Below are positions 21,127-25,312 of a stretch of DNA of 64,000 nt, piece after piece (positions within the stretch are counted from its first letter, which is position 1; each line of letters opens with the position of its first letter). The stretch lies in the NCBI RefSeq assembly GCF_017745215.1, contig NZ_JAGHZV010000016.1:19991-83990 (forward strand), read 5' to 3'. This DNA is from Sphingomonas sp. Its GTDB lineage: Bacteria; Pseudomonadota; Alphaproteobacteria; Sphingomonadales; Sphingomonadaceae. Both the position numbers and the translations under genes were made by a program. Under the pieces are notes generated by a model that saw nothing but the letters and a program-made list of their open reading frames with translations, did not search any database and was not told the origin of the DNA.

Positions 21127-21780
21127 TCAGCGCTCGCGGCTGAGGTCGTCGACCTGCCCCATGATCGCGTCGAGCGCGCTCTCGCCTGACGGAAGCCCGG
21201 ACTCGCGCCGCGACGGCAGGCTGCCATCGTTCAGCAGCGCCTCCAGCGCCACGCGGCCGCGCGCGACGCGGCTCTTGATCGTGCCGACCGCGACCTGGCA
21301 GATTTCGGCCGCCTCCTCATAGGCGAAGCCGCCCGCGCCCACGAGGATCAGCGCCTCGCGCTGCGGCTGTGGCAGATGGAGCAGCGCGCGCTGCATGTCC
21401 GAGAGCTCGACGTGCTTGTCCTGGCTCGCCGGCGCCGCCAGCAGCCGGTCGGCGACCAAATCGTCCCACTCGCCCTTGAAGCGCGAGCGGCGCATCTGGC
21501 TGAGGTAGAGGTTGCGCAGGATGATGAAGGTCCAGGCGCGCATGTTGGTGCCGGCCTGGAAGCGCTTGCGCGCGGCCCAGGCCTTGAGCAGCGTCTCCTG
21601 CACCAGGTCGTCCGCCAGGTCGCGGCTGCCCGAGAGCGAGCGGCCGAAGGCCCGCAGGTGCGGGATGACCTGCGCCAGCTGCTGCTTGAACTCGGGATCC
21701 GACAGGGAGACATGCTCCACGGGCGTATTCTCGCCGGCGGCTTCCTCGTTCTCGTCCACGGATTTTTCGGGCTGAGTCAT
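21127..21780 (-). CDS. ecfG: General stress sigma factor EcfG
   Basis: 217 residues from ATG 21780. Sigma-2 region: LADDLVQETLLKAW followed by FQAGTNMRAWTFIILRNLYL. Sigma-4 region: LILVGAGGFAYEEAAEICQV with GTIKSRVARGR. Size and sequence fit the EcfG (ECF15) group that directs the alphaproteobacterial general stress response. In unstressed cells it is bound by NepR; phosphorylated PhyR releases it. phyR and nepR lie next door. No EcfG-type promoter is seen in front of it; TTGGCA-N17-TAGGTT near 21824-21853 on the minus strand could be a housekeeping promoter. Promoters with its GGAAC-N16/17-CGTT motif occur nearby. Confidence 0.93.
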   Translation of the reverse strand: MTQPEKSVDENEEAAGENTPVEHVSLSDPEFKQQLAQVIPHLRAFGRSLSGSRDLADDLVQETLLKAWAARKRFQAGTNMRAWTFIILRNLYLSQMRRSRFKGEWDDLVADRLLAAPASQDKHVELSDMQRALLHLPQPQREALILVGAGGFAYEEAAEICQVAVGTIKSRVARGRVALEALLNDGSLPSRRESGLPSGESALDAIMGQVDDLSRER

Positions 21781-21876
21781 GCGATTCCATCGATTTGGCC
21801 GCGCGCCCGGGCGGCCGGAATTGAACCTAGGCGCGGCAGCGGCGCTTGCCAATTGCATCGTCCGACGCCCCCTCGC

Positions 21877-22094: not shown

Positions 22095-22898
22095 TCAGCC
22101 GTGCGCCGGAACGGTGGCCTGATCGAAGAACAGCGCCTGCGCGATCGTGGTCTTCACCGTCTCGCGCTGGAAGGGCTTGGTGATCAGGAAGGTCGGCTCG
22201 GGCCGCTCGCCGGTGAGCAGCCGCTCGGGGAAGGCCGTGATGAAGATCACCGGCACCGAGAATTCGGCGAGGATGTCCTTCACGGCGTCGATGCCGGAGC
22301 TGTCGTCGGCGAGCTGGATGTCGGCGAGCACCAGGCCGGGCCGTTCCTCCATCGCCAGCGCCACCGCTTCGTCGCGCGTGACGGCGACGCCGGTCACGTC
22401 GTGGCCCATGTCGCGCACGATCGTCTCGAGGTCCATCGCGATCAGCGGCTCGTCCTCGATGATCAGCACGCGCGTGCGCGTCTGGCGTTCGATTTCCGAA
22501 ATCGCCTCGGCGACCAGCCCCGAGACGTCGCCCGCGGTCCGGCCGATCAGCATTGCGGTATCCTCCGTGGTAAAACCCTCCATCGCGGTCAGCAGCAACG
22601 CTTGGCGCGAAAGCGGCGCGAGGCGAGCGAGGCGGCGCCGGGCGATCGCCTCGGGCTCGCTCACGTCGCCGGCATCCTCGTCATGCTCGTCGAGGTGCGT
22701 GGTCTGCCAGATCGCCTGGAAGGTGCGGTAGAGCCCCAGCCGGGCATCGATGTCGCGCGGGAATTCGTCCGGCGCGGCCACGATCGCCTCGAGCGTGGCG
22801 CGGACGTAGCGATCGCCCTCCACCTGGCTGCCGGTGAGCGCGCGCGCATAGCGGCGCAGGAAGGGAAGGTGCGGCGCAAGCTGCTGTCCAAGCGACAT
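22095..22898 (-). CDS. phyR: PhyR, anti-anti-sigma response regulator of the general stress response
   Basis: 267 residues. The N-terminal part (about 1-135) imitates an ECF sigma factor (LPFLRRYARALTGSQVEGDR; ALLLTAMEGFTTEDTAMLIG), and the C-terminal part (about 143-262) is a receiver with phospho-acceptor Asp193 in LVLADIQLADD and acidic residues IIEDEP. When phosphorylated, PhyR binds NepR and frees EcfG. The gene is divergent from nepR, with a 247-bp region between them. AGGGAG about 12 bases upstream is the likely ribosome site. Size and domain order match PhyR closely. Confidence 0.96.
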   Translation of the reverse strand: MSLGQQLAPHLPFLRRYARALTGSQVEGDRYVRATLEAIVAAPDEFPRDIDARLGLYRTFQAIWQTTHLDEHDEDAGDVSEPEAIARRRLARLAPLSRQALLLTAMEGFTTEDTAMLIGRTAGDVSGLVAEAISEIERQTRTRVLIIEDEPLIAMDLETIVRDMGHDVTGVAVTRDEAVALAMEERPGLVLADIQLADDSSGIDAVKDILAEFSVPVIFITAFPERLLTGERPEPTFLITKPFQRETVKTTIAQALFFDQATVPAHG

Positions 22899-23011
22899 AG
22901 TGAACTGTTTCTCCCTGGGGGACGGCCAGCTTTTGTCGCGCTCCCGCCCCCGCATTGCAATTGCCTTCATGCCCTTCCGCACATGCCCCTGCACGGAATC
23001 GCATCGGGTGT

Positions 23012-23036
23012 GGAACAAACGAGCCGCTGTTTGGTT
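23012..23036 (+). promoter_or_regulatory. Possible sigma-EcfG promoter for nepR-phyP
   Basis: GGAAC-N16-GGTT: a perfect -35 and one mismatch in the -10 (consensus CGTT), in the phyR-nepR intergenic region. A start near 23042 would give a leader of about 100 bases with hairpins before nepR. Autoregulation of GSR genes by EcfG is common. Confidence 0.5.
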
Positions 23037-23096: not shown

Positions 23097-23145
23097 CAAC
23101 AGTTTATATCCGAGCCCCCGGCCGGTCCGGGTTCCTCAGGGGGGA

Positions 23146-23319
23146 ATGGTGCGTTCCGCGAAAAAGACCGTGAAGAAGCAGGATAGTACAGCGCAAGGCG
23201 GAACGAACGGGCGCAAAGGCGGAGGCTCCGTCGGCGCCGCGTTGCGGGAAGCCTATGACGAGACGCTGGGCGAATCGATTCCTGACGAGATGCTCGAGCT
23301 GCTGAAGAAGCTCGGCTGA
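23146..23319 (+). CDS. nepR: NepR, anti-sigma factor of EcfG
   Basis: 57 residues. A basic, flexible N-terminus (VRSAKKTVKKQDS) is followed by the NepR core VGAALREAYDETLGESIPDE and MLELLKKLG, the two helices that bind EcfG or the sigma-like half of PhyR. GGGGGG ends one base before the ATG, unusually close, so translation might start at the next codon (GTG). It is divergent from phyR and 9 bases upstream of the phyP-like gene, forming a two-gene unit. Confidence 0.9.
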   Translation: MVRSAKKTVKKQDSTAQGGTNGRKGGGSVGAALREAYDETLGESIPDEMLELLKKLG

Positions 23320-23328
23320 CGCCTGGCG

Positions 23329-24903
23329 ATGACTCCTTCCAACCCGGAGACGCGCGGCAAGGGTGCAGCGGGTCTCCTGGCGCGCATGCCAACGGGCGCG
23401 AAGGTGTTCGCCATTCTGGTCGTCGCGCTGCTGCCGCTCGCGCTGATCGCGCTCATCACCACGCTCCAGACCACGCGCGAGGCCGACCTCGATGCGCGCG
23501 CGCGGCTGCACGCCGCCGCTGAGGAGAGTTCGGGCGTGCTCGCCAATACGCTCGCCAACCAAATCCCCGAGCTTCGCGACGCGCTCGCCGCGCTCGAGGC
23601 GAGCCCGGCCGACGCGCCGAGCTGCATGCGCGTCCTGGGTGCCTATGGTGCGCTCAGCGCCGCGGGCGTGCGGATCGCCATCACCGGCCGGCGCGGCGAG
23701 CAGCTTTGCGGCCAGCGCCTTTCGATTTCCGGCACCACGGTGCTGCGCGCAGGCCAGGTCGAAGCGACCATCGTCGACGAAGCGCTGGTGCTGCGCGTCG
23801 GGGGTACGCGCGGCGGCATCGCCACGGCCTATTACCCTTCCACCGCGCTTGCCGCGATCGCGCGGCCGAGCGGCTTCGTCCCCGATTACGGCGCGACGCT
23901 GGTGAAGGAGGACGAGCGGCTCGAACTGCGCGCGCTCGCCAGCACCGGCACGCTCGGCCGCAACGAGCGCGTCAATACGCCGCTCGGCATCGACGGGCTC
24001 GTGCTCGAGATGACGATGCCCGGCGCGCAGCTCACGCGCCCGCTGGTCATCGCGATGGTGATGCTCGTGCTGATGTGGATCACCGCGGCGGGAATCAGCT
24101 GGTTCGTGGTCGACCGGCTGCTGATCCGCCCGCTGCGACGGCTGCGCCGCGAAGTCAGCGCCTATGTGCCCGGCGAAGTGATCGATCCCGCCTGGTCGGG
24201 CGCGATGCCCGCACAGGAGATCCGCGAGCTCGGCAACACCTTCCGCGGCATCAGCCAGACGGTGAAGGACCATGAGGCGGGGCTCGCCGAGGGGCTGGTG
24301 CGCCAGACCAAGCTGACCCGCGAGGTCCATCACCGCGTGAAGAACAACCTCCAGGTCATCGCCAGCCTGATCAATTTCCACGCGCGCGGCGCCAGGAGCG
24401 CCGAGGCGAGCGACGCCTATGCCTCGATCCAGCGCCGCGTCGATGCGCTCGCGGTGGTGCACCGCCACCATTATGCCGAGATCGAAGTCAACCGCGGGCT
24501 CGAGCTCCGCTCGGTGATCGGCGAACTCGCCTCGAGCATCCGCGCGACGGCGCCCGAACATGCCTCGGGCTTCGGCATCACGCTCGAGATCGAACCCTAT
24601 CTCGTCTCGCAGGACACCGCGATCGCCGTGGCCTTCCTGCTCACCGAGCTGCTCGAGCTGGCGATCACCTGCAGCGACAGCGCGCAGGTCCGCATCAGCG
24701 TGAAGCCCGAGGCCGAGCCCGATCGCGCGCTGCTGCGCGTCACCTCGCCCGCGCTGGTCGAAAGCGCGCAACTCGAGGAGCTGCTCGAGACGCGCCACGG
24801 CCGCATCATCGCGGGGCTCGCGCGGCAGCTGCGCACGCGGCTCCACCACGAGCCGCTGACCGGCGCCTATGAAGCGACGATCGCCGTCACCGGCCACGCC
24901 TGA
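23329..24903 (+). CDS. PhyP-like HisKA_2 sensor protein with degenerate ATPase domain
   Basis: 524 residues. Membrane helices near 27-47 and 235-260 bound a periplasmic domain of about 190 residues; a HAMP-like linker follows (WFVVDRLLIRPLRRLRREVS). The dimerisation/phosphotransfer part keeps EVHHRVKNNLQVIASLINFH with His334/His335. The following ATP-binding domain is worn: the N-box position reads FLLTELLELAITCS with no Asn, the G1 position reads VTSPALVES, and no Gly-rich G2 loop is left. It should not bind ATP normally, which fits the negative regulator PhyP (thought to act as a PhyR phosphatase) described in Sphingomonas at this locus. Confidence 0.85.
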   Translation: MTPSNPETRGKGAAGLLARMPTGAKVFAILVVALLPLALIALITTLQTTREADLDARARLHAAAEESSGVLANTLANQIPELRDALAALEASPADAPSCMRVLGAYGALSAAGVRIAITGRRGEQLCGQRLSISGTTVLRAGQVEATIVDEALVLRVGGTRGGIATAYYPSTALAAIARPSGFVPDYGATLVKEDERLELRALASTGTLGRNERVNTPLGIDGLVLEMTMPGAQLTRPLVIAMVMLVLMWITAAGISWFVVDRLLIRPLRRLRREVSAYVPGEVIDPAWSGAMPAQEIRELGNTFRGISQTVKDHEAGLAEGLVRQTKLTREVHHRVKNNLQVIASLINFHARGARSAEASDAYASIQRRVDALAVVHRHHYAEIEVNRGLELRSVIGELASSIRATAPEHASGFGITLEIEPYLVSQDTAIAVAFLLTELLELAITCSDSAQVRISVKPEAEPDRALLRVTSPALVESAQLEELLETRHGRIIAGLARQLRTRLHHEPLTGAYEATIAVTGHA

Positions 24904-24932: not shown

Positions 24933-24957
24933 GGAACCAGGACCCACAGAGGACGTT
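24933..24957 (+). promoter_or_regulatory. Perfect sigma-EcfG promoter
   Basis: GGAAC-N16-CGTT, an exact match to the general stress consensus, 30 bases after the phyP stop. No protein gene follows closely; the next features are two hairpins with C-rich loops, so it probably drives a small RNA starting near 24964. Confidence 0.8.
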
Positions 24958-24962
24958 CTACA

Positions 24963-25068
24963 CCCCGGATAGTGACCATTTGCCCCCCCGCTCTCGCTAT
25001 CCAAGACATGGGCCCGGAAGCGTCAACCCTCCCCCCCCCGGTGACGCTTCCGGGCCTAACATTTTCCA
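24963..25068 (+). ncRNA. Candidate general-stress small RNA with two C-rich loops (GsrN-like)
   Basis: Begins about 6 bases after a perfect sigma-EcfG promoter. Hairpin 1: GGATAGTG/CGCTATCC (24967-25002, one G-U pair) with loop ACCATTTGCCCCCCCGCTCT. Hairpin 2: GGCCCGGAAGCGTCA/TGACGCTTCCGGGCC (25011-25056, perfect 15 bp) with loop ACCCTCCCCCCCCCGG, followed by TAACATTTT, a possible weak terminator. No convincing ORF fits. In Caulobacter the sRNA GsrN is driven by the stress sigma factor and uses a C-rich loop to bind mRNAs such as katG. Promoter, C-rich loops and place in the stress locus all fit a counterpart. The ends are estimates. Confidence 0.7.
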
Positions 25069-25111: not shown

Positions 25112-25137
25112 GGAACGATTTGCTGCGGCCGCGCATT
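25112..25137 (+). promoter_or_regulatory. Possible sigma-EcfG promoter of the entericidin gene
   Basis: GGAAC-N17-CATT, one mismatch from the consensus CGTT. A start near 25143 would give a leader of about 30 bases before the ATG at 25175, a normal layout. Confidence 0.5.
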
Positions 25138-25174: not shown

Positions 25175-25312
25175 ATGCGCAAGATTTTGGGCTTGACCCT
25201 CACCGCCACTGCCGCGCTGCTGCTGACGGCGTGCAACACCGTCGAAGGCGTCGGGAAGGACGTGCGTTCGGCCGGCGATACGGTCGCCAAGACCGCCGAC
25301 GACGCCAAGTAA
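25175..25312 (+). CDS. Entericidin A/B family lipoprotein
   Basis: 45 residues, shorter than most ORF cut-offs. The signal LGLTLTATAALLLTAC ends in the lipobox LTAC, so Cys20 is lipidated. The mature peptide is NTVEGVGKDVRSAGDTVAKT ending DDAK. Entericidins are small envelope lipoproteins; the B form of E. coli is induced by stress and osmolarity. AAAGGAGAG sits 5-13 bases before the ATG. A sigma-EcfG-like promoter lies upstream and a strong hairpin terminator downstream. Location at the end of the stress locus fits a stress-induced envelope protein. Confidence 0.88.
   Translation: MRKILGLTLTATAALLLTACNTVEGVGKDVRSAGDTVAKTADDAK

Follow-up and report, generated by a model that had tools for sequence, protein, structure and literature searches.

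An RNA arm of the alphaproteobacterial general stress response became known with GsrN (ccna_R0081) of the Caulobacteraceae, an RNA of about 100 nt that is made from a stress ECF-sigma promoter, exposes a C-rich 5' loop, acts on G-rich targets and usually lies near core stress-response genes (PMC5869019). Its expression depends on the stress sigma factor, it is cut to a 5' isoform and stabilised by Hfq, and its 3' hairpin serves as an intrinsic terminator. GsrN-like candidates were proposed in other Alphaproteobacteria, none was reported for the sphingomonad lineage, and Erythrobacter litoralis is named as a species without an apparent gsrN-like gene (PMC5869019). The transcripts of sigT and nepR co-purify with GsrN; regulation of sigma-T or NepR was not seen in Caulobacter (PMC5869019). 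For the Rhizobiales, the SmelA075/SmelA099 family has been described, which presents CCUCCUCCC loops in three or four hairpins (PMC3927594).

We analyzed a stretch of 64,000 nucleotides from Sphingomonas sp. (the window), in which an earlier note had pointed out a candidate small RNA beside the stress genes nepR and phyP. The window contains the genes of the general stress response, with ecfG and phyR on the minus strand and nepR and a PhyP-type HisKA_2 kinase on the plus strand. Pfam matches place the latter two just upstream of the candidate, as had been claimed, and 3' of phyP follow the RNA element, an entericidin-like lipoprotein gene and then tatC/tatB. We refer to the element of the window as type-A RNA and to a different C-rich RNA, which adjoins phyR elsewhere, as type-B RNA. 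The features are:

21127-21858, minus strand: ecfG, sigma factor gene (PF04542, PF08281)
22095-23018, minus strand: open reading frame of phyR, general stress response regulator (PF22029, PF22233, PF00072); the true start is probably at about 22900, inside this frame
23139-23144, plus strand: GGGGGG adjoining the nepR start on its 5' side, candidate site of pairing with the C-rich loops (start context)
23146-23319, plus strand: nepR, anti-sigma factor gene, likely start ATG at 23146 (PF18557, start context)
23329-24903, plus strand: phyP-type HisKA_2/HWE histidine kinase gene (PF07568, PF07536)
24933-24957, plus strand: sigma-EcfG-type promoter GGAAC-N16-CGTT (exact match; spacer of 16 or 17 in 70/70 type-A copies)
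24964-25068, plus strand: type-A small RNA gene, about 100 nt, ends predicted (covariance-model match of 118 bits; conservation)
24967-25002, plus strand: hairpin 1, 9-bp stem, CCCCCCC at 24983-24989 (fold; compensatory changes in 6 of 8 pairs counted)
25011-25056, plus strand: hairpin 2, 15-bp stem, loop ACCCUCCCCCCCCCGG (fold; compensatory changes in 13 of 15 pairs)
25112-25137, plus strand: EcfG-like promoter GGAAC-N17-CATT of the entericidin gene, downstream limit of the RNA unit (50 of 57 loci)
25175-25312, plus strand: entericidin A/B-like lipoprotein gene (PF08085)

We propose, with a probability of roughly 0.7, that the type-A element encodes an RNA of about 100 nt which sigma-EcfG would transcribe under stress, and whose two structured, exposed C-rich loops would pair with G-rich sites in mRNAs, chiefly ribosome-binding sites. 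Both the transcription and the action by pairing are what we infer from the sequence.

The promoter starts 30 bases past the end of phyP. It is the exact GGAAC-N16-CGTT that the earlier note had read, and no credible protein gene lies behind it, the overlapping open reading frames being mechanical. A protein-coding reading of the element was rejected because the lengths of its C-runs differ by single bases among species. Coordinates and fold confirm the two claimed hairpins with C-rich loops: hairpin 1 joins 24967-24975 to 24994-25002 in 9 bp including one G.U pair, and hairpin 2 joins 25011-25025 to 25042-25056 in a perfect stem. The folding energy is -48.8 kcal/mol compared to -28.1 +/- 3.0 kcal/mol for shuffled sequences (z = -6.9). 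Taken alone the promoter pattern is not unusual, with 1.4 matches expected per 64-kb window, and the CCCCCCC run by itself is no rarer than chance. The transcript is predicted to reach from approximately 24964-24966 to approximately 25065, in agreement with the length and start that had been suggested before. Hairpin 2 is the probable 3' end or terminator of the RNA; the tail behind it consists of U to 46%, but UUUU occurs in 29 of 70 type-A copies. An Rfam scan of the window at the gathering level gave no match, and a permissive scan returned only RF02833 Scr3202 with 31 bits, below its gathering score of 52. Rfam holds no family that matches the type-A RNA.

The conservation of the element was evaluated with a covariance model built from 35 same-genus copies, of which the promoter is not a part. 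GGAAC-N16/17-NGTT is found 7-10 nt upstream of the RNA in 70 out of 70 type-A copies, compared to 0.9% of random control windows from the same loci. This presence of the promoter at the right place, outside the model, lifts the element above chance. Loop 1 holds six to ten C residues and loop 2 at least five in all 70 copies, with mean predicted unpaired probabilities of 0.89 and 0.99, respectively. The loop conservation is partly built in, because the covariance model contains the C-runs; the promoter test is free of this. In a MAFFT alignment that was not fitted to the structure, 19 out of 23 base pairs exhibit two-sided compensating changes, and 94.5% of the cells pair, compared to 30-43% once the partner is slid. 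Conserved promoter and loops in relatives, and hairpins with compensating changes, were among the checks proposed in the earlier note, and both gave a positive answer. As promoter, C-rich loops and compensating changes are conserved, the type-A element is very probably a stress-sigma-dependent small RNA. Judged by its sequences, it is a well-conserved RNA family for the sphingomonad lineage.

The entericidin gene possesses an EcfG-like promoter of its own in 50 out of 57 loci, with CATT as the -10 box in 44 of them, and the type-A RNA therefore represents a separate unit. In the window the -10 box of this promoter (25112-25137) reads CATT, compared to CGTT for the small RNA. The separate promoter bears on another explanation of the two hairpins, namely that they form a terminator or attenuator, either where the nepR-phyP message ends or in a 5' leader that controls the entericidin gene, without any action in trans. 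The position of the element between these genes in one direction would fit such a role, as would the very stable hairpin 2 with its U-rich tail. A terminator or leader, however, would not call for C-runs that stay constant in both loops while the stems below them turn over, and the element has an invariant promoter of its own in addition to the one that serves the entericidin gene further downstream. We regard this explanation as very improbable.

A DNA search recovered the type-A element from almost every same-genus genome tested; one same-genus assembly breaks inside a C-run of the element. With the covariance model, strong matches (E < 1e-7) were obtained in 106 out of 301 genomes, representing 35 of the 96 sampled genera of the family, among them Sphingomonas, Sphingosinicella, Sphingomicrobium, Stakelama, Hephaestia, Parasphingopyxis and Sphingorhabdus. 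The order-wide search with this model yielded no strong match outside the family (best E 0.006). Among distant genera the stems are almost wholly changed; what is kept is the promoter, the pair of C-rich loops and the position between phyP and the entericidin or tat genes. The order phyR-nepR-phyP-RNA-entericidin-tatC is preserved in most genera with type-A RNA, and phyR or phyP lies at most 3.5 kb from the RNA in approximately 19 of 27 diverse loci checked. Five genera without phyR carry neither type-A nor type-B RNA.

Weak matches of the model (E > 1e-5; L111-L122) were rejected as other C-rich hairpins with no promoter or stress genes nearby. In five of these loci (L112, L114, L117, L121, L122), from several genera, a C-rich-loop hairpin of the CCCCUCCCCC type immediately follows the stop codon of a gene with an SLDLVGKI-like motif at its end; it could be an RNA derived from a 3'-UTR, or a terminator.

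Some individual copies may be recorded here. The plasmid search returned one type-A copy, on an 853-kb Sphingomonas replicon: in S. parapaucimobilis YK209 (L351, NZ_CP155750.1) this replicon, named a plasmid, bears the entire stress locus, including the RNA as well as tat and scp genes; the RNA carries no annotation there. In genome G286 there is an additional, diverged copy under an EcfG-type promoter of its own (L125:2800-2950), in which C7 of hairpin 1 is kept and the 3' hairpin is different. In genome G091 (L256:2000-2760) the order phyP-entericidin-tatC is kept with no RNA element in between, which is a natural loss of the type-A RNA.

A different conserved element was found beside phyR in 15 genomes without type-A RNA (L261-L275), mostly divergent from phyR. 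This type-B RNA begins with GGAAC-N16/17-CATT or a variant, followed by UGUCACCGCCGAGACCCCCCCUCCCGUCC and then a U-tailed terminator (e.g. L264:6804-6905, plus strand). It occurs in 102 out of 251 family genomes from 40 genera, and never shares a genome or genus with type-A RNA among the sampled genomes. Its base pairs are supported by covariation, more weakly than those of type-A, and its best Rfam neighbour is CC1840 of Caulobacter with 24 bits, compared to a cut-off of 50. Both types have an EcfG-like promoter, a C-rich loop and a site at the stress genes, phyR in the case of type-B, within the same bacterial family; sequence and fold differ, type-B presenting a single C-rich loop and a canonical U-tailed terminator. 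With a second type present in the family, it seems to count more that a genome has some C-rich stress RNA than which of them it has.

The earlier note had regarded the element as the counterpart of GsrN, a claim that was supported for promoter, position and C-rich loop and not supported for sequence homology. A true GsrN ortholog by common descent, acting on katG and other mRNAs through the 5' C-rich loop, would explain the shared promoter type, the position at the stress genes, the length and the C-rich 5' loop, and would be in line with the GsrN-like candidates proposed elsewhere in the Alphaproteobacteria (PMC5869019). A search of 337 class genomes with the wider model R2, however, gave no strong match elsewhere; the one match at E = 6e-6 sits in a genome (G583) that has no PhyR match. 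No resemblance is obvious in the stem sequences or beside the loops. In sister genera a C-rich RNA of another kind is present, an indication that such RNAs were invented repeatedly or replaced. We rejected katG as a target: no run of at least five G was found in the katG leaders (up to 110 nt upstream) of ten same-genus genomes including that of the window, two of which have GGGG upstream of katG, so that katG, which GsrN is known to act on, is not predicted for the type-A RNA. Common descent with GsrN appears improbable. Since homology is not demonstrable and katG is not predicted, we would say that the type-A RNA works like GsrN, resembling it by analogy in function and place, without classing it as GsrN.

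A different lead arises from nepR. In the window GGGGGG precedes its start, and its ribosome site AGGGGG(G), often combined with a TTG or GTG start, is unlike those of its neighbours (window 23139-23146; L126-L245). Among 94 nepR genes from type-A loci a run of at least four G occupies the ribosome-site position in 87 and a run of at least five G in 67, compared to 0-12% with at least five G for ecfG, phyR, phyP, the entericidin gene (ecn), tatA, tatB, tatC and scpA. Of 13 nepR genes from genera without type-A RNA one has a run of at least four G; the two nepR clades compared are set apart by their ancestry too and not by the RNA alone, and the start codons are predicted. The locus with the natural loss counts against the link, as its nepR keeps a G5 run. 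Duplex energies over 135-nt windows did not single out nepR, with scpA scoring as well. We name the nepR site only tentatively as the most likely conserved target of the type-A RNA. The earlier note had proposed binding of G-rich ribosome sites in general; to this nepR adds a conserved candidate, and the binding itself we infer.

Pairing would mask the nepR ribosome site, so that less NepR and, being encoded on the same message, probably less PhyP would be made. Lowered NepR would in turn strengthen EcfG activity, a positive feedback by which the type-A RNA may reinforce the stress response. Other G-rich ribosome sites would probably be bound as well. Another reading is that an EcfG-dependent C-rich RNA acts broadly on many such sites, or that its partner is a protein or a further RNA, nepR being no special target. 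In its favor, G6 occurs 4-13 nt before ATG at 129 places in the genome compared to 28 for the reversed pattern, and Rhizobiales are known to have RNAs whose diverged stems present C-rich anti-Shine-Dalgarno loops (PMC3927594). The reversed pattern is a weak control, because ribosome sites are G-rich anyway, and nepR does stand out among the nine neighbouring genes; we consider this reading rather unlikely. A genome-wide listing of targets by G6 near ATG was discarded as too unspecific, many inspected sites not being real gene starts. The complete proposal, in which sigma-EcfG would make an RNA that silences NepR translation via a co-conserved G-run, and the place of the stress RNA would be taken by two unrelated C-rich RNAs, each in other branches of one family, we put forward as a speculative possibility, less likely than not.

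No report of the type-A RNA was found in the open-access literature searched on EcfG and small RNAs in sphingomonads, and the sphingomonad stress-regulon literature examined mentions no such RNA. The best Rfam match, Scr3202 of Streptomyces, likewise has two hairpins with C-rich loops; the score below the gathering level and the origin from a different phylum set it apart, and the shared layout is probably convergent. The SmelA075/SmelA099 family is similar in that C-rich anti-Shine-Dalgarno-like loops are kept on diverged stems (PMC3927594). It differs in its loop motif, which is absent from the type-A RNA with its two hairpins and loops of the C7 and CCCUC9 type, and the available part of the source mentions no EcfG promoter for that family.

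Compared to GsrN, the type-A RNA has two C-rich loops instead of the one reported, a poorly U-tailed putative terminator, and no detectable homology in sequence or structure in searches with covariance models of the type-A RNA. It has no G-tract at katG, and the nepR ribosome site represents the better target lead. A stress-sigma promoter, a length of about 100 nt, a C-rich 5' loop and a position near the stress genes are common to both. The type-A family would provide the sphingomonad lineage with a conserved RNA for this arm, and the G-run of nepR offers a direct and cheap way to ask if RNAs of this kind exert feedback on the switch between sigma and anti-sigma factor, an effect that was sought and not seen with GsrN in Caulobacter.
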